Source: Kiloniella litopenaei (lineage in GTDB: Bacteria; Pseudomonadota; Alphaproteobacteria; Kiloniellales; Kiloniellaceae). From it: 64,000 bases of DNA. The stretch lies in the NCBI RefSeq assembly GCF_000982415.1, contig NZ_LANI01000003.1, positions 434,001 to 498,000 of the forward strand, in the 5' to 3' direction. A program made the translations under genes and the position numbers. Below are positions 15,881 through 36,915 of this stretch, one piece after another. Each line of letters opens with the position of its first letter. Position 1 is the stretch's first letter. Under the pieces are notes generated by a model. That model did no database searches. It saw only the letters and a list, made by a program, of their open reading frames with translations, and was not told the origin of the DNA.

Positions 15881-16013
15881 TGTAGGGCGTCGCATAAGCT
15901 GTCACCATCTCTGACACAAAGCAAGGCTTTGGAGCGAATTTTTGACGCATAATTTAGCCTAAAAATGACGCATAAGATGTCATCCGCCTAAATTATGGAC
16001 CCAAATAGTGTCA
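15881..16013 (+). repeat. Left end of the Tn7-like element with TnsB-type sites
   Basis: Copies of a roughly 17-bp motif, near consensus TGACGCATAAGCTGTCA, occur at 15889-15904, 15943-15959 (TGACGCATAATTTAGCC) and 15966-15982 (TGACGCATAAGATGTCA). A weaker one is at 15997-16013 (GGACCCAAATAGTGTCA). The outermost bases are TGTAGGG. Several direct copies of such a site at each end are the normal TnsB-binding arrangement of Tn7-like elements. Confidence 0.8.
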
Positions 16014-16140
16014 TTTCACAAAATTGTTCAGATTTATTTTACATAAGCACAATTATGCGAATCACGGCTCAGGGCACCGGGCCTTAATTTAAGATGTGTC
16101 CTATATGAGAATAAGCAAATCTTACTCTTAGAAAAGCACA

Positions 16141-16174
16141 AAAAAATAGCCCGGGAAAATCCCGAGCTATTTTT
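16141..16174 (-). terminator. Terminator for the 101-residue element gene
   Basis: AAAAATAGCCCGGGA and TCCCGAGCTATTTTT form a nearly perfect stem (one mismatch) with a 3-nt loop. Read on the minus strand it is followed by a run of T, so it ends the transcript of the gene stopping at 16195. The plus-strand side also has a T run and the structure may act both ways. Confidence 0.8.
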
Positions 16175-16194
16175 AGAGAAATATTACTTAGACT

Positions 16195-16500
16195 TTATCG
16201 TCGATCCGTTTTCTCTTTAACTCGAACCCCGCCGTCACCATGATTATCTGGAGTAACAATCCATCCCTCATTCCACGCATTTAAGCATTCTGAAATTAAC
16301 TCAAATGCATTGCCATTATAGGAATCTATAATAGTGCCCTCAAAAACTGTTTCCCCATCTTCTGATTTAATCTGGTATTTATAATCAGAACTCATTCGAT
16401 AGGTATGAGGCCCTGTGATATTTGCAATTTTAATTTCCCCAATTTGTTTTTGTTTTGAATAATCGCCCCGCGGAATAACATCTACTTTCACCAAAATCAT
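16195..16500 (-). CDS. Hypothetical protein, element-borne
   Basis: I do not recognise this 101-residue protein. It starts MILVKVDVIPRGDYSKQKQIG, is predicted mostly beta-strand with a helix in SYNGNAFELISECLNAW, and ends in a charged tail. A GGGGAG sequence lies about 10 nt before ATG 16500 and a strong terminator follows the stop, so it is very likely expressed. It has no membrane segment. It sits between the left end and the Xre/MbcA-like remnant, but it shows no RES-type or other toxin motif. Confidence 0.6.
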   Translation of the reverse strand: MILVKVDVIPRGDYSKQKQIGEIKIANITGPHTYRMSSDYKYQIKSEDGETVFEGTIIDSYNGNAFELISECLNAWNEGWIVTPDNHGDGGVRVKEKTDRR

Positions 16501-16916: not shown

Positions 16917-18509
16917 CTACGTCGTTACAAGAGACCGGATACCTGACTTCATTTGAAGAATGCCTTGAACCGATAAATCCCCCTTTCTTACGAGAATGTC
17001 ACCAAGAACCTTTGGTGGATCCCTTTGCAAATAGACCGATAGTTCACCGCCCAGAACCATCATTATCGCATCTAGGTGGCTTACTCCGTATTGCCGCAAC
17101 CCTGAAAATGCTTCGTTAAGGCTAACCAAATCTTGAGATGAGATGCCTTTGCTAGATATAGCTTTATTAGCCAAGCTATCTAGGAAGGTCTGTGGTGCTG
17201 TTGGCGTAAATACCCAGTTCCTATTTCCATCGACATTCGGTCCGCGAGCTGCTTTTAATAGCCCCTGAGCGGCCAAGTCATCTCCGACCTGACGACTGAC
17301 ACCAATTATCCGACAGAGTTGATCTAGGCTTATAAGGCTAGACAGATAGCTTTTAGCCTGGGCCACATTCTCTGCAGTGTAGTTACGGTATTTCTTCTCG
17401 TTTGATTCAAGCGTAACTGGCTTGAGAATACCAATCTCCTCGAGCCATTGAATTTTCTTTGGGCCAACTTGCAAAAACTTCCCTGTTTCTTCCCGGCTCA
17501 AAGTTTCTTTTTGGCGACCCGTTCCCCAGACAGATGTACAACCTTGATGCTTTACTGTTTGATCGTAACCACGATCCCTGAGGTAGTCCTTAAAGGTATC
17601 TCTAAAGAGCTGTAGAGATACACTATATTCAGTACCATACAGCCCCTTGTAGAGCGCCCCGAATGCCCCTTGGAGGCCCGCGCTTTTCTTTTTGGAGCTC
17701 AGCAGATGTGCACGATAAACATCAATCTGGTTCCAGAAGTTATAAGGCCAATTATCAAGAAGCATGGCAGCTTCCTCCATTAGCCCAGCACACCCCTCTA
17801 AAGACAATCCTGCCAAACGACTACTTTTACGGCTGTCTAACTTAAGGAGCACCGCCCCTAAAAGCGAAATCACCTTGTGAAAATCGACCACATCCAGCTT
17901 GGCCATAGAGGCAAATGGTTCTGGTAGATTTTTAGAAATCGCAACACCTGAAGAGCTCTCAAGTGCTGACATCAAAAGTGAAAGGGGAGCTGAGTTAACA
18001 AAATTGGGCTCTACAGAGCTCAACTCTTCCCCACAGCGACAGTGACAAAGTGTTGTACGGGACCAGGATAGTTTTCTCCCGCAAGTAGGACATACCCCTA
18101 TTAAAGCGCAGTGATGTTTTGGACAGTGCGTATAACCAACAAGATCCCACACCTGTTTATGATAAGGTTCTTCCTTTAAACACTGGGGGCATAGCTTACT
18201 TTTCGATAGATCGACAAGTTCTCTATCAAGCTTCTGCTCACCAAATCCCAGAATGGAACCTTTAGACGATTTGTCTGATTGATAACCTTTTTCTTTAAGC
18301 TTATCGGCTGAAGTATGCAGACACGGTTCAAGCACCTCAGAGTAATTCGCGAGCTTCACCAAGCCAGAAGCGCCACGTACATTTAGGCCTAACGCATTTG
18401 GGACAACACTGATGGAACTATAAAGGTTTTCACCTGATAGCCGTAATAAATACCCATGAAGGCTTTCACCATCTTCAAGTGGTGCAGTTAGTGGGATGGA
18501 CAATCTCAT
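16917..18509 (-). CDS. tniQ: TniQ/TnsD-like target-selection protein
   Basis: The protein has 530 residues, near TnsD of Tn7 (508) and longer than short TniQ proteins. The N-terminal TniQ domain (LEDGESLHGYLLRLSGEN) is followed by zinc-ligand pairs: C107/C110, C129/H132, C140/C143 and C155-C159. The C-terminal half contains helix-turn-helix-like segments (for example SLDQLCRIIGVSRQVGDDLA) that could read DNA. In Tn7, TnsD binds the attachment site and recruits TnsC. With no CRISPR effector here, this protein is the likely reader of the tRNA-Arg site. Its ATG overlaps the tnsC stop as ATGA, showing coupled translation. Confidence 0.88.
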   Translation of the reverse strand: MRLSIPLTAPLEDGESLHGYLLRLSGENLYSSISVVPNALGLNVRGASGLVKLANYSEVLEPCLHTSADKLKEKGYQSDKSSKGSILGFGEQKLDRELVDLSKSKLCPQCLKEEPYHKQVWDLVGYTHCPKHHCALIGVCPTCGRKLSWSRTTLCHCRCGEELSSVEPNFVNSAPLSLLMSALESSSGVAISKNLPEPFASMAKLDVVDFHKVISLLGAVLLKLDSRKSSRLAGLSLEGCAGLMEEAAMLLDNWPYNFWNQIDVYRAHLLSSKKKSAGLQGAFGALYKGLYGTEYSVSLQLFRDTFKDYLRDRGYDQTVKHQGCTSVWGTGRQKETLSREETGKFLQVGPKKIQWLEEIGILKPVTLESNEKKYRNYTAENVAQAKSYLSSLISLDQLCRIIGVSRQVGDDLAAQGLLKAARGPNVDGNRNWVFTPTAPQTFLDSLANKAISSKGISSQDLVSLNEAFSGLRQYGVSHLDAIMMVLGGELSVYLQRDPPKVLGDILVRKGDLSVQGILQMKSGIRSLVTT

Positions 18510-19369
18510 TGTACCATCCCCAGAAAAGGATTCCCGTTTGATTTTTCTTCTCTATTTGCCAGTTCAATAAAAGCTTCACTTAACGACGAGGGGCTTAAAC
18601 GGCTTTCTTCATTCCAAAACGAAATCTCCGCGGCACGCTCAATCAACCTTATTGCCCGACCTCTTAGTCTGCTACTTCCGATCCAGAGAGCCTGGGCCAT
18701 CTTAGGTTCTTCAAGATTGCTATCACCATGAAAAGGCAACGCATTAGAGATGACATGTAAGAAATGAAGCCAGTCTTTCCTAGCTTGCTCATCACCTGAT
18801 TGATTTTGATTAAATTCCAAACGCCCCTTCAGACGCCTTTCGAGTTGCTCATTTTCTGCAAAGACACTGTTCAGCCTATCAAGCCCAGTTAATAATATTG
18901 GCACCTTCCACTCATTAAGACCGTTCTTAAGCCAATCGGCCACATCATAAATCACACTTTTCTTTTTTGTTTCGACAAAATGCTGGGCTTCGTCAAAAAC
19001 GATTAAATCAATACCTTTTTTTTCAAGCACGTATTTTATTTTCATTGAAAGCTGAACACCGGTTGAGCGCGTGTTCGCCCAACCAATATCTCCAAGGCAT
19101 TTTAAAATTTCTTGTGTGAATGCTTTAATAGAGCATGACGGCGGCACATCTACTCTCAAGATTTTCAATTCGGGATTTCGAGATATAAAGTTCTGAATGA
19201 AAGTCGTTTTACCTGCCCCAGAATCCCCAATTAGGCACATACAAGACCCTTGCCGGGATTGTTTTTCCGACATCACATAATTTAATAATCTTTGATGGGC
19301 GAAATGTGTTCCTTGGTTCTCAACAAACACATTTCTAATTTCAGCGATCTGATTAAATTCATATTCCAT
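18506..19369 (-). CDS. tnsC: TnsC/TniB AAA+ transposition regulator
   Basis: The 287-residue AAA+ ATPase has Walker A GDSGAGKT at residues 48-55 and Walker B LIVFDEAQH near 122-130. An arginine-rich sensor region (SSRLRGRAIRLIERA) lies near the C-terminus. At this size it is closer to TniB than to the 555-residue TnsC of Tn7. It links the target protein TniQ with the TnsA-TnsB transposase through ATP-dependent assembly on DNA. It starts 40 nt after the tnsB stop with a strong AAGGAG. A motif repeated elsewhere in the element lies in this short gap. Confidence 0.9.
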   Translation of the reverse strand: MEYEFNQIAEIRNVFVENQGTHFAHQRLLNYVMSEKQSRQGSCMCLIGDSGAGKTTFIQNFISRNPELKILRVDVPPSCSIKAFTQEILKCLGDIGWANTRSTGVQLSMKIKYVLEKKGIDLIVFDEAQHFVETKKKSVIYDVADWLKNGLNEWKVPILLTGLDRLNSVFAENEQLERRLKGRLEFNQNQSGDEQARKDWLHFLHVISNALPFHGDSNLEEPKMAQALWIGSSRLRGRAIRLIERAAEISFWNEESRLSPSSLSEAFIELANREEKSNGNPFLGMVQ

Positions 19370-19397
19370 TTTTTTTACTCCTTAAATTAACCGTGAG

Positions 19398-19412
19398 TAA
19401 AAAATAGGATCA
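19398..19412 (-). promoter_or_regulatory. Shared element motif, copy before tnsC
   Basis: On the minus strand this reads TGATCCTATTTTTTA, 29-43 nt before the tnsC ATG and overlapping the tnsB stop. Very similar sequences precede tnsA and the 132-residue gene. Its role is not known. Confidence 0.45.
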
Positions 19413-21398: not shown

Positions 21399-21401
21399 AA
21401 C

Positions 21402-22055: not shown

Positions 22056-22066
22056 ATATTGGTTCA

Positions 22067-22082
22067 GAAAAAATAGGGTCGA
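22067..22082 (-). promoter_or_regulatory. Shared element motif, copy before tnsA
   Basis: On the minus strand this reads TCGACCCTATTTTTTC, 12-27 nt before the tnsA ATG. It shares GACCCTATTTTTT with the copy at 22648-22662. Confidence 0.45.
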
Positions 22083-22827: not shown

Positions 22828-25275
22828 TTAAGGAGCTTCTCGTTTTGAGCACATATGGGCACTTCTTATCACACCAGCATCTATGCCTAGCCGCTCCGCA
22901 TACTGGGAGCTCAATCCTTCCATGACCGTCACCACTGAATCGGCGGAGAGTTCTTGCTCGGTCAAGTGCGTGCGCAGATACACCTGCCTTACTAAAGATT
23001 CAATGTAACGGTCGATTCTAGCCCGCTCCTTCTTGGACATTGGTGCTGCAAGGCAAGCCTGGATGCACCAGAAGCACGTTGCCCAACACTCAATCAGATC
23101 GACTGGAAGTTGATCGTGATCGGTTTCGAGTTTCAAGCTTGCAATCGCAGGATTTGGACCACCGAATATCTTGAACAGCAGCCGCCCTATGATAATCGGC
23201 CAACTGTCTGGATCATCCTCGACGGGAAGGACCTGCAAAGCATCTTGTCCCGCCTGCTTTTCCCTTGTCCGATTTGTGCCTTTCCATGCCGCTGCGCAGA
23301 TGATCATCAGCAGCGCGCGCAACCTCAGAAAGTCGCGAGTGGAAAGAGAGCCAGCCTGTTGCTTAATATCTATCCTATTAGCGAATTTGGTCGCAGCCGA
23401 GACTATCTGCTCTTTGGTAGACTCGCGTTGCATCGCCCTGAGGCGTTGCTCCTCTTTATCAAGCTCTTTCGTTGTATCATGCCGGGCTTCGATGTCGAAT
23501 TCATCGCCTGCCGCAATCTCAGCCTCCGCATTTTCTGTTTCGTCACCCAGATAGAATGCAGCTTTTAAATCCTGATCGTTGTCATCATCATCTTCGATCT
23601 CGACCGTGAGGCCGCTCAGACCGACAATTCGGTTCAAAACCCCCCTTACGACAGAAACATCGCTGCTTCCCAAGCTATTGTGAAGAACCGAGCCTGCTTG
23701 ATGTAAGCGGCGTCCTGCGATGAATTCTTCGTAGGTCAAGATACGGTGGTTTGGGACATCACTGTCGCCATGCTTCTTTTGTGCTTTGGGGATAGAAATC
23801 CCCTCGCTTGTTCCGACCTCATCATTTTCCTCAATCTTCTCCAAAACGTCGAGCACTTCGAGCAAGGCAAGCCCTGCTTCGGTTTCCCCGTCAAGCTGTG
23901 AGAGAGCGTTTTCCGTCTTGCGTGAGTGTGTCTCACGTATCGCCACCTGAAGTGCATCTACATGGGTGATGATAGCGGGCGGGAAATTCACCGGCCCGAG
24001 TACACGCGCGAATGTAGGCACTTCATCAAAAGTTTCAATCAGGTATCGAACTACTTCCTCCGAGGAACTTTCGAGCTTGCGCGGGACGATGTCGAGATTG
24101 TTGCCCGAGGCACTCATCAATTCGATCCGGCAATCGGCAGAGGCAAGATTCTGTGAGGGTTGCCAATCTAGGATGTCACCTCGCAACGAAAACATTCCGG
24201 GATGCTGAGAGACCAACTGATCTAGCGGAATATCGTCTTCATAATTTTGTTGAGCCAGGTCTTCAGCGGCAATCTGATTCTCTTGATCGAGAAGTTTCGC
24301 AAGGCCTAGTGCCGCAACAACCGAACCTGGAGGCAAGCGACGATAAATGCTTGCCTCATCATTGCGACCAGAAAATGAACCGTTACCAAGTGCCGCCTTC
24401 GTGCAGTTCGCACTCCCAATCAGAAGGTGATCGGCACTAGCTGTCTCGGCAATAAGTGCCTTTGCATGGATGAATCGGCCCGTTTCGAAGCCGCTTCGTT
24501 GGTACAGCTTCAGATTCGGTATTGAACTCGCCGCATCGCGTGGGAAGAGCTCTGTATCTTGATCAATCAATACGGAAATTTCGCGCGGTCCAAGTTCCTC
24601 GCTCAGGAAAGCAAGCGCTGCAAGCTCATCATCCCAATAGGGGCTGATCACTATCAAGCGATCCACACGCTCGTTTATAAGAGCCGTAAAGCGGGAACCA
24701 ATTCCCGTTTGCGTGTTCGCAATCAAAAGCGCCGCCACACTACCATCGCCAAGCGTCACCGGGTTTTCGCTCGGCTCCGCTGTGCGAAGCCAAGGAGCAC
24801 GATTGAGCATCCACTTTCGCTGCGTCAAGAGCATCTGATTTCCAGGATCAATCAGTCCCTCCAGGTACTGCCAAGCTTGAGCAATCAAGCTCTGCGTTCC
24901 TTCATCCTCGGAATCGTAGCCAAGTATCGTCACGAGTTCGAGATTACCTGCGAGTCCGGCAGCGGTTAGGTTTGCTGAACCAATAATCAGGCGTCCAGCT
25001 TTACGGCCAACTTGAAGGAAGAGCTTAGGGTGGAAAAGCCCTTGTGCTGCTGCGCCTTCAACAGTGTAGAGCTTGCCTGCTTGTCTTGGGAGCGGAGAGG
25101 CACCGTCAAGTGCATGAGTCAACATCCTGCGATCTGCAAGCAAAATATTGTTCCGGCAGCCTGCACCTCTCAATCGGGGGAGAACGATGTTTTCATAAGC
25201 GTCGAAATTGATGCCAAATGTTGTGGCAATACTTGTATGATAACCCTTATCGGCAAAACGTTCATAAAGCCTCAT
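22828..25275 (-). CDS. Phospholipase-D-fold protein (putative nuclease), defence cargo
   Basis: The 815-residue protein has two PLD-type half-sites in its N-terminal third: H82-x-K84 with GSANLT at 99-104, and H270-x-K272 with GSANCT at 287-292. The usual acidic residue after HxK is Val in the first motif and Glu at the nearby position in the second, as in some PLD nucleases. The remainder (about 330-815) is acidic and helical with no family I know. The start overlaps the stop of the upstream 529-residue gene by 4 nt. Nuclease activity on DNA is inferred from the fold and the defence setting; phospholipase activity is unlikely without a signal peptide. Confidence 0.75.
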   Translation of the reverse strand: MRLYERFADKGYHTSIATTFGINFDAYENIVLPRLRGAGCRNNILLADRRMLTHALDGASPLPRQAGKLYTVEGAAAQGLFHPKLFLQVGRKAGRLIIGSANLTAAGLAGNLELVTILGYDSEDEGTQSLIAQAWQYLEGLIDPGNQMLLTQRKWMLNRAPWLRTAEPSENPVTLGDGSVAALLIANTQTGIGSRFTALINERVDRLIVISPYWDDELAALAFLSEELGPREISVLIDQDTELFPRDAASSIPNLKLYQRSGFETGRFIHAKALIAETASADHLLIGSANCTKAALGNGSFSGRNDEASIYRRLPPGSVVAALGLAKLLDQENQIAAEDLAQQNYEDDIPLDQLVSQHPGMFSLRGDILDWQPSQNLASADCRIELMSASGNNLDIVPRKLESSSEEVVRYLIETFDEVPTFARVLGPVNFPPAIITHVDALQVAIRETHSRKTENALSQLDGETEAGLALLEVLDVLEKIEENDEVGTSEGISIPKAQKKHGDSDVPNHRILTYEEFIAGRRLHQAGSVLHNSLGSSDVSVVRGVLNRIVGLSGLTVEIEDDDDNDQDLKAAFYLGDETENAEAEIAAGDEFDIEARHDTTKELDKEEQRLRAMQRESTKEQIVSAATKFANRIDIKQQAGSLSTRDFLRLRALLMIICAAAWKGTNRTREKQAGQDALQVLPVEDDPDSWPIIIGRLLFKIFGGPNPAIASLKLETDHDQLPVDLIECWATCFWCIQACLAAPMSKKERARIDRYIESLVRQVYLRTHLTEQELSADSVVTVMEGLSSQYAERLGIDAGVIRSAHMCSKREAP

Positions 25276-26861
25276 ACGCTGACAGCCTCCGCACCCTGCG
25301 AAGTTAATCCATCATCGCCAAGCATTCCCACATCCTTGAGAAAGGTGATTGCCGGACCAAGGCGCGGGTTGGTGAATACTGGGCCGTCCTTTTCACGCAG
25401 ACGAAGCCTGCCATTATCGGCCTCAATCAGAAAAGTGTAGTCGCCCTGATGTCGCAACTTTCGTAAAGCTATCCACAAGTGTCGCCGAATAATGCGCTCT
25501 TCAATGATGCGCTCAATTGTTTTTCGGAAGGGCTCTTCCTTCTGGCTGTCGAGAAACCTTGTCTCACTTAGTAGAGAGCGAAACGCATCGGTATTAAATC
25601 CACCGAGCGATTCGTAGAGGTCTGTGTTGGTGTCTCTGATCCTACGATGGAGTATTGCCAGCAGGTGAAGTGCTTTTGCCGCTGTCTCCGATGTGCAAAC
25701 CGTGGCGTCATCGCGACCAGCACGTATGATGTTACTTGCGAGAGTGATTTCGGCGCCAACTTTGAGACTATCAAATGCGTTATTTTCGAGCTCGATGGCA
25801 CTTACCAGCGTGTCCCAACTCTTGGGATGATCTTCAAACTCGTCCAATATCTTTTCAGTACACTGTCCAACGAGGTTAGCAAGACCTATCCCTGCCCGAT
25901 GGTCGCCAAGAATATCGAGAGTGAATTTGAGAAGTACTTCGTGAGCGACGTGGCACAAATCGTTTGCTTGATAGACCCACCAACGCAGGCGTTGGGCTTC
26001 CAGCGCCGGATTATTTAAAACGAGAGGTTCGCCATTCTGATCGCATCCTGCATATAGCACCCACCGGATTTCATCGGGGTGGGGCTCACGCCCTAGAAGG
26101 GTGGCAACCTTCAGTATGAGTTGGACGCTCAATTTGCGAGACAACGCGCCTGCAGTAGGAGCATTCTTCTGCGTCACTAAGATCTCCCGATAATATTTTT
26201 GTTCGGTACTGTCCGGCGAGATTACAGAAGGGAGTAATGGGGCCAATTCGTCAAGCTCGGCGATTGTTGCAACGCCTCTCTCGACGATATTGAAGTACAG
26301 GTCTGCTAAAGGCCCTGCCGCATCAGCGAATGCCTCGGCAAGCCCTTCGCCCAAGGGTCTGCTCGGCAATGGTATTTCATGAATATGCGAGCTGTCGAAA
26401 ATTCCGATTTCGAAAAGCTGGCTTCGGTAGGCTGCACCGAAAGCTCCCCAAACCTGCTTGAGATAGTAGTTCTCGCTTCCTGGCTCGGCGGCTTCAGCAA
26501 ATTCGATACTATCTCCTTGCTGTTCTGACAGCGCAGAGGTAGCCCATTCAATCCCTGCAATACCTGTTTCGCCTGTATGGTGACTGGCTACCAGAGCGTA
26601 AAGCGCTTCCGCCCGTCTGACATAGCGCTTCCAGTTCTGAAGATCCGTATCACTGACTTCTTTGGCATATCGCTGCGCAAGCCATGCATAGAGTCCGTAG
26701 TAACGCATACGCAGTGTCACGTTTGAGATACCTGGCAAGAATGTCTGATAGAGGCTGACGCTGCTATTCTGCATACCGAGAGGATCGAGACCGTTCTTTT
26801 TCCGATACTCGGTCCATTCCGGGTACGCGATCCGAACTGGCTCCGTATTTTCTTTGCTCAT
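25272..26861 (-). CDS. Uncharacterised partner of the PLD-fold protein
   Basis: From ATG 26861, which has a strong GGGGAAGAGGGG leader, the protein is 529 residues. Longer in-frame readings up to 26948 would add a hydrophobic stretch that looks untranslated. I do not recognise a domain. The N-terminal motif QTFLPGISNVTLRMRYYGLY weakly recalls the FPG-S-T-RxRY pattern near the start of DUF6361-type proteins; the rest is helical. The 4-nt overlap with the PLD gene indicates a stable two-protein unit. Its promoter lies in the 135 bp shared with the divergent Mrr-like gene. Confidence 0.6.
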   Translation of the reverse strand: MSKENTEPVRIAYPEWTEYRKKNGLDPLGMQNSSVSLYQTFLPGISNVTLRMRYYGLYAWLAQRYAKEVSDTDLQNWKRYVRRAEALYALVASHHTGETGIAGIEWATSALSEQQGDSIEFAEAAEPGSENYYLKQVWGAFGAAYRSQLFEIGIFDSSHIHEIPLPSRPLGEGLAEAFADAAGPLADLYFNIVERGVATIAELDELAPLLPSVISPDSTEQKYYREILVTQKNAPTAGALSRKLSVQLILKVATLLGREPHPDEIRWVLYAGCDQNGEPLVLNNPALEAQRLRWWVYQANDLCHVAHEVLLKFTLDILGDHRAGIGLANLVGQCTEKILDEFEDHPKSWDTLVSAIELENNAFDSLKVGAEITLASNIIRAGRDDATVCTSETAAKALHLLAILHRRIRDTNTDLYESLGGFNTDAFRSLLSETRFLDSQKEEPFRKTIERIIEERIIRRHLWIALRKLRHQGDYTFLIEADNGRLRLREKDGPVFTNPRLGPAITFLKDVGMLGDDGLTSQGAEAVSV

Positions 26862-26996
26862 CCCCTCTTCCCCCATATCAAAACAAACAACACCAAATAC
26901 AAGCATTAAATGCAAATAAAATCTCGCCATTGTTGTATTGCTCATCATACGTGACTATCATTGCATCCGACTCATATAAAAGATTTGGTGGGGTAT

Positions 26997-27920
26997 ATGA
27001 TTCCTGATTATCAAACATTGATGTTGCCAGTATTAAAATCAGCATCTCAGGGTGAAATTAAGACGACAGACGTCATTGATCGTCTGGCCCTTGAATTTAA
27101 TCTTACAGAAGAAGAAAAGAACGCCTTTCTCCCTAGCGGAGGAAAAAAGATCTTTTATGACCGAGTGCATTGGGCAAAAAGTTATCTAAAGCAATCTGGA
27201 CTTTTACATTACCCATCCCGAGGGTACTTTGAGCTAACAGATGCCGGACGCGCTGAACTCGCCAAGAAGCCAAAACGCATAGATAACCAATATTTAGAAA
27301 AATTCGAAGGTTATCGATCCTTCAAAGCTCGTTTAAATTCCAAAAAAGATACTGAGAACGAGATAGGTTCAAGCCCCCCCCCAATAACCTTTAATTCGGA
27401 TCTAACCCCCGATGAGGCTCTACGTTCAGCACATCGAACCATTAACGACGCATTAGCTTCTGATTTATTACAACGTGTGCGTGAAGCTTCCCCTCAATTT
27501 TTTGAAGAACTCATCATATCGCTTCTAGTTGCGATGGGTTATGGCGGCTCTTCTGAAGAGGCAGGTCAAGCCCTAGGTAAAAGCGGCGACGATGGCGTCG
27601 ACGGAGTTATCGATCAAGATCCTCTAGGGGTAGACCAAATCTATGTTCAAGCTAAACGATATGCCGAAGGCAATAATGTTGGCTCTCCTGCTATTCGTGA
27701 TTTCTTTGGAGCCCTAAGCCTTAAAAAAGCTCAAAAGGGAATTTTCTTCACGACATCCAAGTTCAGCACATCTGGAATTCAAACAGCAAAAGAACTTGGC
27801 ATGCGTATCGTCTTAATAGATGGTCAGCAATTAACTAAATTAATGATTCGATACAACATTGGTTGTCGCGATGAAGAAATCCTACACCTGAAAAAGGTGG
27901 ATGAAGAATTTTTTGAGTAA
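26997..27920 (+). CDS. mrr: Mrr-like type IV restriction endonuclease
   Basis: From ATG 26997 (GGTGGGG just upstream) the protein is 307 residues. The N-terminal winged-helix domain (IPDYQTLMLPVLKSA, later RVHWAKSYLKQSGLLHYPSRG) is the Mrr_N type. The C-terminal PD-(D/E)xK nuclease domain shows GDDGVDGVI and the QAK of IYVQAKRY, the catalytic pattern of Mrr. Mrr proteins cut methylated or otherwise modified DNA. An in-frame ATG at 26961 would add 12 residues without family character. No methyltransferase is needed for its action, but it stands 157 bp before one. Confidence 0.9.
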   Translation: MIPDYQTLMLPVLKSASQGEIKTTDVIDRLALEFNLTEEEKNAFLPSGGKKIFYDRVHWAKSYLKQSGLLHYPSRGYFELTDAGRAELAKKPKRIDNQYLEKFEGYRSFKARLNSKKDTENEIGSSPPPITFNSDLTPDEALRSAHRTINDALASDLLQRVREASPQFFEELIISLLVAMGYGGSSEEAGQALGKSGDDGVDGVIDQDPLGVDQIYVQAKRYAEGNNVGSPAIRDFFGALSLKKAQKGIFFTTSKFSTSGIQTAKELGMRIVLIDGQQLTKLMIRYNIGCRDEEILHLKKVDEEFFE

Positions 27921-28077: not shown

Positions 28078-30834
28078 GTGAACGCTGTAGAGATCGAAGA
28101 GGCTATATCAAAGTTGATTGAGCAGGAATTCGATGCTGCTGAATTCCCTTTTGCGTTCCTGGAAAGCTATGGCAACAAACCGCCGACCATTAAGCGTCTG
28201 CGCACAGGCAATACCAACAAAACTGATATTGATGGCGCGGTACTGCAAACCAACAATATTCATATGCTTGTTTGTGATGAAGGCACTGTTGCAGATGGCC
28301 TTGATCGGCTTCGTACCAGCCCGCGTACGGAAAAGAATAAGGCTAAGTTCATTTTTGCCACAGACGGTAAAGAGATTCAGGCCGAGGATCTAAAGTCAGG
28401 CGATACGCTTGCCTGTGATTTTGATGACTTTCCCTCCCACTTTCTTTTCTTTGCAGCTCTTGCTGGGATCAGCTTCACCAAGTCCATTGAGAACCCAGAG
28501 CTGGATGTTCGTGCCACAGGTCGGCTAAACCGTCTTTATGTGGAGCTGTTGAAGCATAATCCCGACTGGGCAACGGCAGAGCGCCGCCATGATATGAACC
28601 AATTTATGGCGCGGATGATTTTTTGCTTCTTTGCTGAGGATACAGACATCTTTAACGGCGATGATCTGTTCACAAGTACAATTGAACAAATGAGTGATAG
28701 CCAGTCCACCAATACCCATGAAGTGATTGCGGAACTGTTCCGCGCTATGGATACAAAGATTGCTGATCGACCTGCCGGCAATTTCCGTCCTTGGGCAGAT
28801 GCTTTTCCTTATGTGAATGGTGGCCTATTTGCAGGTGTGCGTGATGCGCCAAAGTTCAGCCGGATTGCCAGAACCTATTTGATCCATGCTGGCAAGCTGG
28901 ATTGGCAAAAAATCAATCCTGATATTTTTGGCTCTATGATTCAAGCCGTTACGGATGAGGAAGAGCGTGGTTCACTGGGAATGCATTACACCAGTGTTGA
29001 AAATATCCTGAAGCTCCTCAATCCGCTCTTTCTTGATGATTTGCGGGATAAGCTGGAAAAGGCAGGCGACAATAAGGCCAAGCTACTGAACCTACGCAAG
29101 CGTATGGCTAAAATCCGTGTATTTGACCCTGCTTGTGGCAGTGGCAACTTCCTTGTGATTGCATACAAGCAGATGCGGGAAATCGAGTTTGAGATTAACA
29201 AGCGGCGCGGCGAAACAGATCAGCGATCAGAAATTCCTTTGACCAATTTCAGGGGCATCGAACTCCGTGACTTCCCTGCTGAAATCGCACGTCTTGCACT
29301 GATCATCGCAGAGTTCCAATGTGATGTGATCTATCGCGGTCAGAAAGATGCTCTTGCTGAGTTCTTACCCTTAAATGCAATGAATTGGATTACGCAGGGG
29401 AATGCCCTACAAATAGACTGGCTGAGTGTATGCCCATCAACAGGGACTACGGTTAAATATCAAGGCGATGACTTGTTCAGCACACCGTTAGATCAGGCAG
29501 AAATCGATTTTGAAAATGAAGGCGGGGAGACCTTTATTTGCGGCAACCCTCCATACCTAGGCCGTAATAGGCAAAACTCTGAACAAAAATCAGACACGAA
29601 AGAGGTCTTTTCTAAGTATCAAGGATCGTTTGGCACCTTGGATTACGTTGCTGGTTGGATCATAAAATCTGCGTTGTATTGCACTCAGACCAATGCAAAA
29701 GCTGCGTTAGTGACAACTAATTCGATTTGTCAAGGCGAGCAAGTCGCAAAGCTTTGGCCGTTGGTTTATAATTTGCAACAAGACATTATTTTTGCAAGAA
29801 CCTCTTTTACATGGTCAAACTTAGCTAGTAACAAGGCTGGTGTAACTGTAATTGTAGTTGCAATAGGGCCGAAATCTCAAAAAACTAAAACATTATTTGA
29901 TGCTGACAGCGCCCGGTCTGTAGATGTGATTGGGCCATATCTAATAGCTGGAAATAACGTAACAGTATCAAAGAGAGAAACTCCATTATCGTCTTTGCCT
30001 AAAATGTATTTGGGTAATATGGCTAAAGATGGTGGAAACCTGATCATGGATAGCTCTGAAGCAACATCGCTGATTGAAAAAAATCCAGATACTAGGGAAT
30101 TTATTCGCAAATTTTATGGTTCTGAAGAGCTTATACATTCGAAGCCTAGAGCATGCATATGGGTTGAAGAGGCTTGTGTTGAAGAAGCTTATGGCATTCC
30201 TGAACTTGATAATATTTTTACAAGAGTAACAGAGTTTAGAAATAGTAGCTCAGCAGCATCCACCAGACATCATTCCAAGACCCCTCATAGATTCGTGCAG
30301 CTGTCTGCCAAATCTGGGGAGCGATTATTTGTTATCCCTCGCGTATCATCTGAAAACAGGCCTTATCTGCCAGTTGATTATCTCAAATCAGGGGCTGTAA
30401 TTGGAGATAAATGCTATGCAATTTATGATGAAGAACTATGGAATCTTTCGATCATAGCATCCAAAATGCATATCGTTTGGATTGGTACAGTTTGCTCTAG
30501 ATTGCGAACTGATTTTTCATATGGAAATAAGTTAGGCTGGAATACATTTCCAGTTCCAAAGCTGACCGAAAAAAATAAGGCTGACCTGACCAAATGCGCT
30601 GAGGACATTTTATTGGCGCGGGAAGCGCATTTTCCAGCCACCATAGCTGATCTCTATAACCCAGACACTATGCCAGAAAACCTGCGCCGCGCCCATGAAC
30701 GCAACGATGAAGTGCTGGAGCGCATCTACATTGGTCGCCGTTTTAAGAACGACACAGAACGACTGGAAAAACTTTTTGATCTTTATACTAAAATGACCTC
30801 TTCAGAGGCACAAATCAGCGCGAAGGGGGCGTGA
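28078..30834 (+). CDS. MmeI-like class I DNA methyltransferase of a restriction cassette
   Basis: The 918-residue protein has an N-terminal region (1-150), a helical spacer, a methyltransferase core with motif I FDPACGSGNF (349-358) and motif IV NPPY (490-493), then a target-recognition region and a C-terminal helix bundle. The layout matches MmeI-type proteins, and NPPY points to N6-adenine methylation. In MmeI the N-terminus is a D-ExK nuclease; here the equivalent stretch (TDIDGAVLQTNNIHMLVC) shows no ExK, so cutting may be left to other subunits. It starts with GTG preceded by AGGAGA, and its end overlaps or abuts the helicase start. Confidence 0.85.
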   Translation: MNAVEIEEAISKLIEQEFDAAEFPFAFLESYGNKPPTIKRLRTGNTNKTDIDGAVLQTNNIHMLVCDEGTVADGLDRLRTSPRTEKNKAKFIFATDGKEIQAEDLKSGDTLACDFDDFPSHFLFFAALAGISFTKSIENPELDVRATGRLNRLYVELLKHNPDWATAERRHDMNQFMARMIFCFFAEDTDIFNGDDLFTSTIEQMSDSQSTNTHEVIAELFRAMDTKIADRPAGNFRPWADAFPYVNGGLFAGVRDAPKFSRIARTYLIHAGKLDWQKINPDIFGSMIQAVTDEEERGSLGMHYTSVENILKLLNPLFLDDLRDKLEKAGDNKAKLLNLRKRMAKIRVFDPACGSGNFLVIAYKQMREIEFEINKRRGETDQRSEIPLTNFRGIELRDFPAEIARLALIIAEFQCDVIYRGQKDALAEFLPLNAMNWITQGNALQIDWLSVCPSTGTTVKYQGDDLFSTPLDQAEIDFENEGGETFICGNPPYLGRNRQNSEQKSDTKEVFSKYQGSFGTLDYVAGWIIKSALYCTQTNAKAALVTTNSICQGEQVAKLWPLVYNLQQDIIFARTSFTWSNLASNKAGVTVIVVAIGPKSQKTKTLFDADSARSVDVIGPYLIAGNNVTVSKRETPLSSLPKMYLGNMAKDGGNLIMDSSEATSLIEKNPDTREFIRKFYGSEELIHSKPRACIWVEEACVEEAYGIPELDNIFTRVTEFRNSSSAASTRHHSKTPHRFVQLSAKSGERLFVIPRVSSENRPYLPVDYLKSGAVIGDKCYAIYDEELWNLSIIASKMHIVWIGTVCSRLRTDFSYGNKLGWNTFPVPKLTEKNKADLTKCAEDILLAREAHFPATIADLYNPDTMPENLRRAHERNDEVLERIYIGRRFKNDTERLEKLFDLYTKMTSSEAQISAKGA

Positions 30835-30839
30835 GGATA

Positions 30840-32882
30840 ATGACAGCGCATAAATCAGTTCCATCGGTATCGGTGAATTATGCCACCAACGGCAACTCGA
30901 CTAGCTCTAACGAGCTTGGCATGCGGGTGATGCAGGAACGTGCCTATGAAAAGCGCGGTGAACAGTATCTTCTGATCAAATCACCACCTGCATCTGGTAA
31001 AAGCCGCGCCTTAATGTTTATCGCCCTTGACAAGCTGAATAACCAAGGAATTGATAAAGCCATTATCACCGTTCCTGAAAAATCCATTGGTTCCAGTTTT
31101 GCAGACGAAGAGCTAATGAAATTTGGTTTCTACTGGGACTGGCAGGTGAACCCAAAATGGAACCTGTGTAATGCCCCTGGTGAAGATGGTAGTAAAGCCA
31201 ATGCTGTGAAATCCTTCATGGAAAGTGATGATGCTGTTCTGGTATGCCCTCATGCCACATTCCGTAATGCTGTGGAAAAATTTGGTGTTGAGCTATTTGA
31301 TGGCAGCCTAATTGCCATTGATGAATTCCATCATGTATCAGCTAATCCTAACAATAAGCTTGGTGCACAGTTAGGACAGCTTATTGAACGCGATAAGGTT
31401 CATGTTGTGGCTATGACTGGCTCCTACTTCCGTGGTGACGCAGAAGCCGTAATAATGCCAGAAGATGAAGCCAAGTTCGATACGGTGACATACACTTACT
31501 ATGAGCAGCTTAATGGCTATAGGCACCTAAAGAAGCTGGATATTGGCTATTATTTCTATGCAGGCTCCTACGCAGACAGCATCCTTGAGGTGCTAGACCC
31601 GCATGAAAAGACAATTGTGCATATCCCAAGTGTGATGTCCCGTGAAAGCACGAAGGACAAATACAAAGAAGTTGAACACATCATTCACGAGCTTGGTGAA
31701 TGGCTCGGTGTTGAAGATGAAACAGGCTTCCACCGTGTAAAGACTGAAGGCGGCAAGATTATCAAGATTGCTGATCTGGTTGATGACACTGATCCTAAAC
31801 AACGTGAGAAGGTTCAAAGCGCGCTCAAGTCCCGCGTAGCCAAAGATAACCGCGACCATGTGGATATTATCATTGCGCTTGGTATGGCGAAAGAAGGCTT
31901 TGACTGGATATGGTGCGAACATGCGCTGACTGTTGGGTATCGCTCCAGCTTGACAGAAATCATTCAGATCATTGGTCGTGCGACCCGAGATGCTGAGGGT
32001 AAAACTCATGCTCGTTTCACAAACCTGATTGCAGAACCGCAGGCAGATGAAGAGGTGGTGACAGATGCAGTTAATGACACGCTGAAAGCCATTGCTGCCA
32101 GCCTATTGATGGAGCAGGTTTTGGCTCCGCGCTTTAACTTCACACCTAAGACACCGCAAAGCGGTCCAGAAGATGGATTTGACTATGGTGAAGATGGGTA
32201 TGATCCGAATAAGTCCAATGTGGGCTTTAATGAAGACACAGGCGAGTTTCAGATTGAAATTAAAGGCCTGACTGAGCCGAAGTCAGAGGAAGCACAACGT
32301 ATCTGCGAACAAGACTTGAATGAGGTTATCACGGCCTTTGTACAGGATAAGACAGCAATTGAACGCGGACTGTTTGATGAAGAAATGGTGCCACAAGAGC
32401 TAACTCTGGTTAAAATGGGTAAAATCATAAAAGAGAAATTCCCAAAGCTTGACGACGAAGACCAAGAAGCGGTTCGCCAACACGCTATTGCAGCACTGAA
32501 CCTGACACAGAAGGCCAAAGATATTGCCAGTGATGAAACTGGCGGCAGTACAGCCCTGATTGACGGTGTGCGCAAGTTCACAATGGATGTACGAGATCTT
32601 GAGATTGATCTGATCGACAGCATTAATCCGTTTGGTGAGGCATACTCTATCCTGTCCAAGACAATGTCAGAAGATAGCTTGAAACAGGTTGCAGCCGTGA
32701 TCTCTGCCAAGAAGGTTAAGCTGACACATGAAGAAGCCCGCGATCTGGCCTTCCGTGCGTTACAGTTCAAGAAAGAACGTGGTCGCCTGCCTGATATTAA
32801 TTCCGCGGATCCTTGGGAAAAACGGATGGCAGAAGGCATAGCCTTCTTGCAACAAAATGCGAAGGAGGCTGCGGATGGCTGA
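30840..32882 (+). CDS. SF2 DEAD/DEAH-type helicase of the cassette
   Basis: From ATG 30840 the protein is 680 residues. A GTG at 30831 overlapping the methyltransferase stop is an alternative start. Motif I is SPPASGKSR (K54), the DExH box is IAIDEFHHVS (161-164 DEFH), and motif VI is IIGRATRD. About 280 further residues are charged and helical. It resembles the translocating or unwinding subunits of ATP-dependent restriction systems. The very tight packing with the genes on both sides argues that all three proteins work together. Confidence 0.85.
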   Translation: MTAHKSVPSVSVNYATNGNSTSSNELGMRVMQERAYEKRGEQYLLIKSPPASGKSRALMFIALDKLNNQGIDKAIITVPEKSIGSSFADEELMKFGFYWDWQVNPKWNLCNAPGEDGSKANAVKSFMESDDAVLVCPHATFRNAVEKFGVELFDGSLIAIDEFHHVSANPNNKLGAQLGQLIERDKVHVVAMTGSYFRGDAEAVIMPEDEAKFDTVTYTYYEQLNGYRHLKKLDIGYYFYAGSYADSILEVLDPHEKTIVHIPSVMSRESTKDKYKEVEHIIHELGEWLGVEDETGFHRVKTEGGKIIKIADLVDDTDPKQREKVQSALKSRVAKDNRDHVDIIIALGMAKEGFDWIWCEHALTVGYRSSLTEIIQIIGRATRDAEGKTHARFTNLIAEPQADEEVVTDAVNDTLKAIAASLLMEQVLAPRFNFTPKTPQSGPEDGFDYGEDGYDPNKSNVGFNEDTGEFQIEIKGLTEPKSEEAQRICEQDLNEVITAFVQDKTAIERGLFDEEMVPQELTLVKMGKIIKEKFPKLDDEDQEAVRQHAIAALNLTQKAKDIASDETGGSTALIDGVRKFTMDVRDLEIDLIDSINPFGEAYSILSKTMSEDSLKQVAAVISAKKVKLTHEEARDLAFRALQFKKERGRLPDINSADPWEKRMAEGIAFLQQNAKEAADG

Positions 32883-34077
32883 ACTATCAGACCTTGAGCT
32901 TCTTGATGCATTAGGCGTTGAAGCCAAGGAAGAGAAAAAGAAAAAACGAACGCCGAAAGAAGAGCGCATTATTGCAGGCTTTGAAGAAATTCAGAAGTTT
33001 GTTGATGATAATGGTCGCTTACCTGCTCACGGTGAAGGCAATGATATTTTTGAGCGGCTTTATGCCACACGCCTCGACCAGATCAGGAAACAAGCTGAGT
33101 GCCGTGACCTTGTGACTGAACTGGATCATCAAGGCCTGCTGGATGGTGCTAGTGAACCTGTTGAAGAAATCCCAACAGATATTGATGATGATGCTCTGCT
33201 TGCTGAGCTAGGTGTTGAAGCCAAAACTGATGATGTAACAGTTTTAAAGCATGTCAAAACCCGCGCTGAAAAGCGTATGGTTGAAGAAATGGCTAACCGC
33301 ACAAAGTGCGAGGACTTTGACAAATTCAAGCCACTCTTTGAAGCAATTCAAAACGATCTCGATAATGGTAACAGGGAAACCAAGAAATTCAGAAAAGACG
33401 CAGGCTTTTCAAAGACAGACATTAAGGCAGGTCAGTTTTTTATTCTTGGTGGTCAAACAGCATATATCGCTAAAGTGGGTGAAGAGTTTACAGCTCCTAA
33501 TGGCCAACCAGATGCTCGTATGAGAGTGATTTATTCCAACGGGACTGAAAGCGACCTGCTTCTGCGGTCTATGCAGCGTGCCCTTTATAAGGATGAGACT
33601 AGTAGGATCGTCTCTGACCCTGTTGCAGGCCCGTTGTTCTCAGGTGAGGCAGAAGCTGATGATCTGCCAAGTGGTACTATCTATGTGCTTCGCAGTAAGT
33701 CTGAAGATCCATATGTTTCAGAACGTCATGAGGTGCTGCACAAGATTGGCGTGACTGGTGGGGATGTAAACAAGCGCATTGCAAACGCTAAACACGATGC
33801 GACATATCTACTGGCTGATGTAGAGATCGTAGCCACATATAAACTCGCAAATATTAATCGCAAGAAAATGGAAAAACTACTTCACAAGTTTTTTGATGCT
33901 GCTCGTTTGAACATTGAAATTAAAGATCGCTTTGGTAACCCAGTATCACCACGAGAGTGGTTCCTTGTGCCTTTGTTTATCATCGATGAAGTAGTGGACA
34001 AGATTAAAGACGGTACGATAAGTGACTACACTTACGATCTTGAGCAAGTGAAGCTTGTAAAAAGCAAAAAAGCATAG
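32875..34077 (+). CDS. GIY-YIG nuclease of the cassette (T5orf172/MUG113-like)
   Basis: From ATG 32875, which overlaps the helicase stop, the protein is 400 residues. Residues 1-120 are acidic and helical; two similar stretches (ELSDLELLDALGVEAK and DIDDDALLAELGVEAK) form a short internal repeat at about 3-18 and 102-117. The C-terminal domain (about 265-380) is a GIY-YIG nuclease with IYVL (269-272), HKIG (289-292), R301 and E333 in the expected order. It is the most likely cutting subunit of the methyltransferase-helicase cassette. Confidence 0.82.
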   Translation: MAELSDLELLDALGVEAKEEKKKKRTPKEERIIAGFEEIQKFVDDNGRLPAHGEGNDIFERLYATRLDQIRKQAECRDLVTELDHQGLLDGASEPVEEIPTDIDDDALLAELGVEAKTDDVTVLKHVKTRAEKRMVEEMANRTKCEDFDKFKPLFEAIQNDLDNGNRETKKFRKDAGFSKTDIKAGQFFILGGQTAYIAKVGEEFTAPNGQPDARMRVIYSNGTESDLLLRSMQRALYKDETSRIVSDPVAGPLFSGEAEADDLPSGTIYVLRSKSEDPYVSERHEVLHKIGVTGGDVNKRIANAKHDATYLLADVEIVATYKLANINRKKMEKLLHKFFDAARLNIEIKDRFGNPVSPREWFLVPLFIIDEVVDKIKDGTISDYTYDLEQVKLVKSKKA

Positions 34078-34226
34078 CCTTGAACTTACATTACAATCGA
34101 CAATCTTGAACATATTTTTGCTTTCTTTTTAACCACTTTATCTACACACTTTATAGGTGAAAATAAAATTTTCTTTTCCGTTGAATTGGGCTGTCTCTGG
34201 ATAATTATTAGGCATAGATATAAAAC

Positions 34227-36800
34227 ATGACTGGTTTAGCTTTAATCCATTACAAAGATTTCGATCAATCATTATCAAAATTATCAAGAGGTGGGGGGGA
34301 AAGAAAAAGGATCGCTGATAAAGTATATTCTGCGATACAAAAACATGTACTAGGTCATGGAAATCTTGCAGATCTCCCCATTACAAAGAATGGTGAGACT
34401 CGAATACAGCATTGCACAAAGTATGATCTTGGAAATGGCTATAGACTAGTTACCATTCAGCTAAAAAAATACATTGCATTATGCTTTATAGGGAATCACG
34501 ATTCTTGCGACCAATGGTTAGATCGAAATTCTGGCTTAACTTTTACAATTGATAGCGATGGTACTCTTGGTGCAGATTATAAAAGTAACTCATCTGAAGG
34601 CGTAAATATTGTTCGCGCTCCCAAACCAAATACCGGTCAATTATTGACACTGCTTCCTGAGAGTTATCAAGCAAAATTATTAGCTAATGTCCCCCCCCTT
34701 ATTTCAATAAAAGTATCTCAACTTCAAGGGTTTGTTCTCCCAGATGAAATAGACAGACTGTGCAATGAAATTGATGATTTACAGACTAAATCATTTGTTA
34801 GAGATACATTACTTCTTTTATCGAATGACGACCTTCATAGTGCAAAAAAACGCATTGAACTTGAATATAAGCAATCAATTGAACTCGAAGATGCTGACGA
34901 AAACCAAATCCTAAACATCAAAGATGGAGATCAAGTGCGTCGCCTCATCATTGGTTCGCAAGAGTACGAAAATTGGATAAATAGATTTTCAAAAGAAGCT
35001 GAATATTATGACTGGCTATTATTCATGCACCCTGAACAAGAAGCCCTTGTTCATGAACACTTCACAGGATCAGCGATGTTATCCGGAGTATCCGGATCAG
35101 GTAAAACCTGTATAGCAGTTAAAAGGGCACTTAAGTTATCTAATGACAATACAGATAATAAAGTTCTACTGGTTACTCTTAACAGAAGTTTAGCGCATCT
35201 AATAAAAATGATGCTAATCCAAGCTACTATAGATAAAGAAGAAATTAACAACATAAAAGTATGTTCTTTTTTCGAGCTTTGCCAAGAGCTCCTCATAGAA
35301 TATGAGCCAGAAAATAAGAGAATTTATTCTGATGTTTCCTGGAAGTTAGAAGAACACATAGACGAAATTTTCCGTGAGTACTATAGGTGTTGGAGTAACA
35401 ATAAGAGTGCTGAAATCCTTCTTCCTATTCATGCAAGCCTTACAGCAAAAGGACTGTCTGCAGAAGACTATTTACGCGAAGAATTTGACTGGATAAGAAG
35501 CGCTATACCTAAGTCAGATAGAAGCAAATATATCAGAATCGATAGAGAAGGAAGAAAATACCCTATTCTAGAGCACAGGAGGCAATTAATACTCAAAGGC
35601 TTAGATTCATGGGAAAAGAAAATGACAGCAATTGGTGTCATTGACTACCTAGGACTAACAACTCAGCTATCTAATCATTTAGACAAAATATCCTCTAGGT
35701 ATGAACATATCATAATTGACGAAGCCCAAGATTTTGGAACAACAGAGCTCTCCATCATAAAAAACCTATCAATACCTGGAGAGAATGATATTTTCATGTG
35801 TGGAGACATAGCTCAGCATGTTTTACCCAAGCATCGAAGCTTAAAAATAGCAGGTATAAACACTCAAAGCCGTCAAAGAACTATTACCAAAAATTATCGA
35901 AACACAAGACAAATACTTAAAGCTGCATATTCTGTTCTCGAACAAAACTTAGATGAAGAACAATTCAATAGCCATGACCTAGAAATTTTAGACCCTGACT
36001 TTGCAAATAGGTCATCCAATGAACCTCTTGTCTTAGAGGCCAGTAACCTAACTAAAGAATTTGCATATGCATTTTTTTTAGTTGAGCACCATATAGAAGT
36101 AAATCCCAATCATACATGCTGCATTGCTGTTGCAGGTTTTTCACAAAGGGAGATTGAGCAGTATGGCGCCCTCAGAGACATTCCGGTCTTACAAGGGTTA
36201 CACAGCCCTGAAAAACACCCATTAGTATTATCTGATTTAGAACAAACTAAAGGATATGAGTTCAATTTAATGATTATCCTAAATTGCTGCGACAAGGTTC
36301 TTCCACCTACCAACATGCCCGAAGAAGAAAGTTTTAGAGAAGGATGTAAGTTATATGTTGCAATGACAAGAGCCCGTGATGAACTTTATCTTTCATTCCA
36401 TGGAGAACCAAGCAAATGGTTAAGTAGAGATAATTCTGATTTATTCTTTGATAAATGGGAAGATGTCTGTGAATTTAAAAAGTGTCATCTACACACCCCC
36501 CCCATACATCTAGAGGAAATTGAAGCCTCTGAAAAAAGAACTTTACTGCAACTATCCGGGCGAGAATTTATATATACCTCAAACGCCTTAGGACTCAGCA
36601 AAGGTGCCCTTAATAAAATCGACGAGTTGGTAGATGGTGTTGGCATGACCAGAAACGGCAATATGATTAGATGGAGAAATGTTGGGGCCATGTTGACCGA
36701 TTTAGAGCGCTCACCGAGGGCTAAACAATTATTTGGCCCTAAAATTCAGGAAGAAATAAGAAGCAAACTATCTGAGCTTGTAACTCTTGCTATCACATGA
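34227..36800 (+). CDS. UvrD-like SF1 helicase with RelE/ParE-like N-terminus
   Basis: The 857-residue protein starts with about 100 residues resembling RelE/ParE toxins (NGYRLVTIQLKKYIALCFIG then HDSCDQWL). A linker leads to an SF1 helicase with Walker A GVSGSGKT (287-294), Walker B IIIDEAQDFG, an arginine-containing NYRNT motif and motif VI YVAMTRARDELYLS. The toxin-like part may act as an RNase or as a protein-interaction module; its catalytic residues cannot be judged. The gene is much richer in A/T than its neighbours and has no strong ribosome site. It ends 36 bp before the outermost visible right-end repeat. Confidence 0.82.
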   Translation: MTGLALIHYKDFDQSLSKLSRGGGERKRIADKVYSAIQKHVLGHGNLADLPITKNGETRIQHCTKYDLGNGYRLVTIQLKKYIALCFIGNHDSCDQWLDRNSGLTFTIDSDGTLGADYKSNSSEGVNIVRAPKPNTGQLLTLLPESYQAKLLANVPPLISIKVSQLQGFVLPDEIDRLCNEIDDLQTKSFVRDTLLLLSNDDLHSAKKRIELEYKQSIELEDADENQILNIKDGDQVRRLIIGSQEYENWINRFSKEAEYYDWLLFMHPEQEALVHEHFTGSAMLSGVSGSGKTCIAVKRALKLSNDNTDNKVLLVTLNRSLAHLIKMMLIQATIDKEEINNIKVCSFFELCQELLIEYEPENKRIYSDVSWKLEEHIDEIFREYYRCWSNNKSAEILLPIHASLTAKGLSAEDYLREEFDWIRSAIPKSDRSKYIRIDREGRKYPILEHRRQLILKGLDSWEKKMTAIGVIDYLGLTTQLSNHLDKISSRYEHIIIDEAQDFGTTELSIIKNLSIPGENDIFMCGDIAQHVLPKHRSLKIAGINTQSRQRTITKNYRNTRQILKAAYSVLEQNLDEEQFNSHDLEILDPDFANRSSNEPLVLEASNLTKEFAYAFFLVEHHIEVNPNHTCCIAVAGFSQREIEQYGALRDIPVLQGLHSPEKHPLVLSDLEQTKGYEFNLMIILNCCDKVLPPTNMPEEESFREGCKLYVAMTRARDELYLSFHGEPSKWLSRDNSDLFFDKWEDVCEFKKCHLHTPPIHLEEIEASEKRTLLQLSGREFIYTSNALGLSKGALNKIDELVDGVGMTRNGNMIRWRNVGAMLTDLERSPRAKQLFGPKIQEEIRSKLSELVTLAIT

Positions 36801-36835
36801 TTTTAAAAAGTGAAAAAACGGCTATTTTACCTCAA

Positions 36836-36915
36836 TGACAGCTTATGGGTCCGTCGCTCACACAAAATCAATGACTTAGCATCAATTTCAACAACAGCTT
36901 ATGTGACGCCCTACA
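36836..36915 (-). repeat. Right end of the Tn7-like element with TnsB-type sites
   Basis: On the minus strand from 36915 the sequence is TGTAGGGCGTCACATAAGC followed by TGTTG, matching the left end. A second site, GGACCCATAAGCTGTCA, lies at 36852-36836, and a weaker one (TGATGCTAAGTCATTG) lies between them. A further CCCTACA at 36916-36922 repeats the terminal heptamer outside the end. Confidence 0.8.

Follow-up and report, generated by a model that had tools for sequence, protein, structure and literature searches.

The 64,000-nucleotide stretch of the Kiloniella litopenaei genome analysed here (the window; contig NZ_LANI01000003.1, positions 434,001 to 498,000 of the forward strand) contains a 21-kb segment, 15881-36915, that adjoins a tRNA-Arg gene and combines transposition genes with genes of restriction, nuclease and helicase type. 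The locus raises the question of whether this segment is a mobile element and, if so, how it selects its target and what it carries. We conclude, with a probability of about 0.9, that it is a Tn7-like transposon free of CRISPR (clustered regularly interspaced short palindromic repeats) components, which homes to tRNA-Arg(CCT) and carries exchangeable defence cargo. The ends and the attachment site are as follows.

15881..15902, plus strand: left terminal repeat TGTAGGGCGTCGCATAAGCTGT; a TnsB-site-like CATAAGCTGTCA starts at 15893, and a homologous left end is present in the congeneric genome G012 (L047)
15971..15982, plus strand: internal left-end repeat CATAAGATGTCA, TnsB-site-like, also present in G012
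36836..36847, minus strand: internal right-end repeat CATAAGCTGTCA, TnsB-site-like
36894..36915, minus strand: right terminal repeat, with an extra TGTAGGG copy directly outside at 36916-36922
36930..37006, minus strand: tRNA-Arg(CCT), the attachment site

The end pattern TGTAGGGCGTCRCATAAGCTGT was sought on both strands of the window with up to three mismatches, and in 100 shuffles. It occurs twice, at 15881-15902 on the plus strand and at 36894-36915 on the minus strand, that is, in inverted orientation, against a shuffle mean of 0.00. The matching ends claimed in a preliminary description of this DNA, made from the sequence alone, are thus exact in their coordinates and not a product of chance. 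CATAAG[C/A]TGTCA repeats lie further inside each end, at 15971 and 36836. Inverted TGT...ACA ends with repeated, putative TnsB-type sites are organised as in Tn7-like transposons. The 3′ end of tRNA-Arg(CCT) is 14 bases from the right end of the element. If the second TGTAGGG is the true end, the outer boundary could lie 7 bases further right, and the distance to the tRNA would then be 7 bases.

The transposition genes are on the minus strand and head towards the left end in the order 132-residue open reading frame (ORF), tnsA, tnsB, tnsC, tniQ.

16195..16500, minus strand: 101-residue ORF adjoining the left end, whose homologue in the corresponding position of G012 is 68% identical
16917..18509, minus strand: TniQ/TnsD-like target selector, 530 residues, TniQ core and C-terminal MerR-like helix-turn-helix
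18506..19369, minus strand: TnsC AAA+ ATPase, 287 residues
19410..21398, minus strand: TnsB DDE transposase, 662 residues
21402..22055, minus strand: TnsA endonuclease, 217 residues
22220..22618, minus strand: 132-residue core ORF upstream of tnsA, its first 53 residues the same in all three sister elements

TnsA, TnsB, TnsC and TniQ/TnsD are all encoded in one operon, and the four tns genes are open. Pfam identified TniQ, TniB/AAA, rve with Mu-transpos_C, and TnsA N-terminal domains in it. Alignments to solved relatives show the DDE residues of TnsB, the E/D/ExK residues of TnsA and the Walker A/B motifs of TnsC, which we take to be catalytic; the operon was correctly described as complete from the sequence alone. 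Both sister elements, those of G012 and G013, retain the TnsA and TnsC motifs unaltered. The Pfam core of TniQ spans residues 6-136, and the last 231 residues match MerR_1 at 22.0 bits (cut-off 21.6), with HTH_17 below its own cut-off. A TniQ with this domain make-up fits a TnsD-like selector, which would bind the tRNA gene. The 132-residue ORF, for which structure prediction from a three-sequence alignment gave a mean pLDDT of 44.7, may be a regulator, but this is a guess. Three phased 10-base AT repeats (22674-22712) lie directly upstream of it, where the core meets the cargo.

Nine genomes of the genus were compared, including that of the window; the 3′ flank of the tRNA was readable in eight of them, G010 being incomplete. 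The empty tRNA-Arg site that would be expected in a relative was found in G007, where the aligned blocks of the left-flank gene and the tRNA are 15 bases apart, compared with 21.8 kb in the window. The same core and right end are present at the same tRNA-Arg in G012 and G013. One contig of G012 (L002) holds the tRNA, right end, cargo and core, and the left end, abutting the flank gene, is on L047. The core and right end of G013 (L003, L041) and its left flank are on three separate contigs, and its left end is degenerate yet significant (0 of 300 shuffles). In the window and G013, a Vut_1-like gene separates the flank gene from the left end; it is missing from this position in G012 and G007. 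The tRNA-Arg of G008 is accompanied by a right-end remnant. Sequence unrelated to the element lies next to the tRNA-Arg in G009, G011 and G014, with the two flanks of G011 on different contigs. The insert in G009 (L073 902-12747) is a two-partner-secretion (TPS) locus encoding ShlB and a large TPS protein with haemagglutinin repeats, and that in G014 holds a patatin-like gene.

Among the genomes searched, a core of this type was found in this genus alone. A TnsB search of the family gave matches at E 1e-20 in four of 23 genomes, including the window's own, and the close ones were those of G012 (81%) and G013 (76%). TniQ matched its own genome and two others weakly (22-27%) among 385 genomes of the class; G012 and G013 were not among the matches, and their membership of that sample is uncertain. 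A search of plasmids for the core DNA gave no match. Contig 327 of G013 (L079) encodes a second TnsB-like protein, 29% identical to that of the window, and a second Tn7-like or related element may thus be co-resident in G013.

Most of the core differs less between the window and G013 than the chromosome around it. Nucleotide divergence is 2.9% in tniQ, 4.3% in tnsC, 5.9% in tnsA, 8.3% in the 132-residue ORF and 23.5% in tnsB, and synonymous changes affect 23 of 528 codons of tniQ, 24 of 288 of tnsC and 13 of 216 of tnsA. The five flanking genes diverge by 14.5-26%, and 27-48% of their codons carry synonymous changes. Because tnsA, tnsC and tniQ are far closer than the host flanks, we read the similarity as a recent transfer, in which the core probably moved between species.

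The divergence of tnsB is confined to a part of the gene. A two-breakpoint scan of the window against G013 (L003), covering 16950-22618 with positions gapped in either relative dropped, delimited a segment at 19637-21396 that differs by 26.4%, compared with 4.4% outside it. The log-likelihood gain was 268, whereas 40 site shuffles, a mild control, gave no more than 11. The segment corresponds to tnsB from its start to approximately residue 587, and only about one of the 62 residues at TnsB positions 601-662 differs. Over 95 columns, 20% of positions differ between the right ends of the window and G013, and the figure is 18-20% among the pairs of the window, G012 and G013. The C-terminus of TnsB contacts TnsC in related systems. 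By these comparisons, the body of TnsB appears to go with the ends, and its tail with tnsC-tniQ. We tentatively propose that the element family swaps a transposase-and-ends unit (TnsB residues ~1-587) and a targeting unit (TnsB residues ~588-662 with tnsC-tniQ) separately by recombination, with the cut inside tnsB. The mosaic was detected in one genome pair, of which G013 is a metagenome assembly and possibly chimeric. Another divergent patch lies within tnsA (21661-21760), and scans that included G012 yielded lower gains (28 and 51) and other borders.

The remainder of the element, between the core and the right end, is occupied by the cargo.

22828..25275, minus strand: PLD-family protein (ZacB-like), 815 residues, with two HxK...GSxN motifs recognised by eye
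25272..26948, minus strand: partner of the PLD protein, 558 residues, weak ZacA match
26961..27920, plus strand: Mrr-type type IV restriction endonuclease with Mrr_N and Mrr_cat domains
28078..30834, plus strand: DnmA/YeeA-like (MmeI-family) DNA methyltransferase
30831..32882, plus strand: YeeB-like SF2 helicase
32857..34077, plus strand: YeeC-like T5orf172/GIY-YIG protein
34227..36800, plus strand: ArmD-like UvrD/GajB-type helicase, 857 residues, with an N-terminal RelE-like domain

The restriction, nuclease and helicase character attributed to the cargo holds for Mrr, the MmeI-family methyltransferase, the DEAD helicase, the T5orf172/GIY-YIG protein, the UvrD helicase and the PLD protein with its partner. 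Comparison with the defence profiles of PADLOC returned a restriction-methylase fusion model for the methyltransferase and weak ZacA/ZacB matches for the PLD pair. The genes probably form four independent defence modules: the PLD pair, Mrr, the DnmA-YeeB-YeeC cassette and the ArmD-like helicase, each of which would act against phages. Mrr appears from its domains to be an ordinary type IV enzyme. The cargo of the G012 element, of which five larger ORFs were scanned, is different and includes an N6 methyltransferase, an HATPase protein and an HNH nuclease. The cargo of the window is mostly of already described kinds. The preliminary description knew of no earlier account of this combination of genes. 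The novelty of the cargo is doubtful: the cassette is known as DnmA-YeeB-YeeC (PMC9973331, accessible text), and the toxin-domain helicase resembles ArmD (PMC12458937, accessible text); for the PLD pair, a literature search confined to listings found no paper.

The methyltransferase-helicase-GIY-YIG cassette is DnmA-YeeB-YeeC, with an MmeI-family methyltransferase, an SF2 helicase and a T5orf172 protein in this order. The accessible part of PMC9973331 gives this gene order and these three protein types for B. subtilis and V. crassostreae, describes the cluster as conserved, and cites raised phage sensitivity of V. crassostreae deletion mutants; the cassette described here differs in riding on a Tn7-like element. 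Of 398 genomes sampled from the phylum, 22 encode the YeeB-like helicase, the window's own among them. In all 22 hits besides the window copy, the GIY-YIG gene follows the helicase on the same strand, and a methyltransferase with at least 560 matched residues precedes it in 20; the other two have a 34-residue match and none, respectively. A second, diverged cassette in the same genome (contig 13, L123 307-6159; helicase 54%) is counted among the 22. Within the genus, the helicase is present in two of the nine genomes, the window's own and G007, where it is on another contig. The match of the methyltransferase to the solved MmeI begins only at residue 84, and its best PADLOC model is a restriction-methylase fusion. 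Inspection by eye of an alignment of 22 methyltransferases (17 genome loci, four plasmids and the window; one truncated, three gene-bearing loci left out) revealed no conserved nuclease motif; some N-termini, including that of the window, contain stray D/E-x-K triplets. In some plasmid cassettes, the methyltransferase and helicase genes are separated by one to three additional genes (L066 2582-11235, L067 4436-11229). A supposed test of the cassette in Zymomonas was discarded, as the accessible text of PMC8432527 contains no such system.

The UvrD-type helicase resembles ArmD of ARMADA type II, which in the accessible text of a preprint (PMC12458937) is likewise a UvrD/GajB-like helicase with an N-terminal RelE-like domain. 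Of the type II set of ArmA, ArmB, YprA-like ArmC and ArmD, the element holds only an ArmD-like gene and a YeeA-type methyltransferase, with no ArmA or YprA-like ArmC beside the gene. The N-terminus of the window protein has no Pfam match; those of four of five relatives match RelE-superfamily toxin models, all below curated cut-offs, and seven UvrD-type proteins align across the N-terminal part. The protein of the window has a longer C-terminus than the six relatives aligned with it. In three of six plasmid relatives fetched, one record being unannotated, the UvrD-type gene comes after a very large DEAD/DEAH helicase gene. A search of the 398 phylum genomes at E 1e-40 found the protein in its own genome alone, and no relatives of it or of the PLD partner were confirmed in the viral contigs searched.

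In all nine fetched loci (five genome, four plasmid), the gene of the PLD protein neighbours that of its partner on the same strand; one of these loci is next to a Zorya-like operon, and another is flanked by hsdS and hsdR. The partner is present in one of the nine genus genomes, that of the window. The PLD protein matches PADLOC ZacB in five of five tested loci and the partner matches ZacA in four of five, with weak scores, and the lengths of 815 and 558 residues compare with models of 586 and 396. A literature search for the meaning or definition of the PADLOC name Zac found none in print.

Several observations weigh against a transposon that homes intact to tRNA-Arg. A 5-bp target-site duplication was sought at the window and G012 junctions and none was seen, so the present junctions may be composite; the window flanks read atttc and cccta, or caata if the outer TGTAGGG repeat is the end. 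Such a duplication is a usual mark of Tn7-like insertion, and it is lost once the junctions change. The distance from the right end to the tRNA varies, being 14 bases in the window, 11 in G012 and 16 in G013. The pieces in G013, and the separate left end in G012, are assumed to form one element each. The predicted structure of TniQ is uninformative (mean pLDDT 34.5, three-sequence alignment). One helicase has a weak PADLOC Cas3 match (1e-4), which we attribute to a general resemblance among helicases. According to the accessible part of PMC9973331, DnmA-YeeB-YeeC did not protect B. subtilis against phages.

Some of these observations would suit an immobile or composite island, the ends of which came from different insertion events at one hot spot and which no longer transposes as a unit. 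The missing duplication, the tandem TGTAGGG at the right end and the Vut_1 gene found beside the left end in only some genomes point in this direction. The degenerate left end of G013 and the right-end remnant of G008 suggest repeated use of the site. A candidate older right-end remnant in the left flank of the window was rejected: its best local score of 32 was equalled or exceeded by at least 20 of 1598 scored window stretches, and the values from shuffles alone were 0.016-0.54 for the four ends compared. We consider such an island unlikely, since the 22-base repeat and an internal site are kept at both ends, the four tns genes are open, and tnsA, tnsC and tniQ are much closer to those of G013 than the host flanks are. 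That the region is ancestral chromosome is next to impossible: no point in its favour was found, and the empty G007 site, the closeness of the core and the differing cargo of the window and G012 contradict it; a shared ancestral region had been named in the preliminary description as what would refute its reading. A union of DnmA-YeeB-YeeC and the RelE-UvrD helicase into one coordinated, ARMADA-like hybrid system is suggested by their common strand and spacing of 149 bases, and by the pairing of a YeeA-related methyltransferase with ArmD in ARMADA II (PMC12458937, accessible text). We rejected this union as improbable because none of 26 other cassette loci (22 genome, four plasmid) has a UvrD match at 1e-6, and G+C drops from ~0.46 to 0.36 at the UvrD gene.

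The affinities of the core raise the possibility of a decayed type I-F3 CRISPR-associated transposon (CAST) that lost its Cas genes. The best solved relatives of TnsB and TnsC are those of the I-F3 elements Tn6677 and PseCAST, ahead of ShCAST and, for TnsB, of Tn7; TnsA matches the PseTnsAB fusion, and TniQ, with I-F TniQ as its best PADLOC model, matches several solved TniQs, 30ga TniQ.1 among the best. However, the PADLOC models matched by TnsB and TnsC are of type V-K, TnsB has its best plasmid matches among cyanobacterial sequences (28-31%), and the placement comes from best matches. As the preliminary description had it, the ORFs scanned in the element (the larger ones and a few small) yielded no Cas family, apart from the weak Cas3 match of the helicase. 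No CRISPR-like array was found in it either, the sole Rfam match being the tRNA, so that a Cas effector with an array inside the element, the mark of a CAST, was not found. None of the five scanned cargo ORFs of G012 is Cas. A search for a guide-like copy of the tRNA region inside the element gave only two exact 12-mers, both within genes, and was dismissed. Unlike Tn6677 and PseCAST, the element encodes a long TniQ (530 residues) with a putative DNA-binding part of its own, its C-terminal helix-turn-helix. Descent from such a CAST is very improbable.

The CRISPR-free, tRNA-homing Tn7-like transposon shares its tnsABC and tniQ core with the set of Benler 2021 (PMC8649781), the accessible text of which gives a median length of 14-29 kb and describes Tn7-like elements that carry defence genes, restriction being commonest, and insert past tRNAs. 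It differs from that set in the lack of a detected target duplication and in its occurrence, among the genomes searched, in one genus. In the type I-D CAST CyCAST (Faure 2023, PMC10293859, accessible text), too, TnsD directs insertion downstream of a tRNA gene; there, the distance is 30-33 bases and the gene is tRNA-Leu, compared with 14 bases and tRNA-Arg in the window, where no Cascade or array was found. A literature search joining Tn7-like, tRNA-Arg and TnsD found no paper, with subscription papers mostly outside its reach.

Based on the ends, the core and the occupied and empty sites, a mechanism of insertion can be proposed. TnsB, together with TnsA, would bind and cut the TGTAGGGCG ends, and TnsC would bridge. 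The long TniQ/TnsD-like protein would use its C-terminal helix-turn-helix part to recognise the tRNA-Arg(CCT) gene, and would direct insertion a few bases past the 3′ end of the tRNA, which would be left intact. The space from tnsA to the tRNA-proximal end would serve as an exchangeable cargo bay, and the element may still move.

The locus thus presents a probable CRISPR-free Tn7-like element at tRNA-Arg in an alphaproteobacterial genus, with its best solved relatives in the I-F3 CAST lineage, and two sister elements, those of the window and G012, differ in their restriction-type cargo. A genuine tnsB mosaic would preserve, as found in nature, the point at which a Tn7-like machine can be divided and joined again. 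It would mark a natural divide between end recognition and target selection, and would bear on how such elements change their target.

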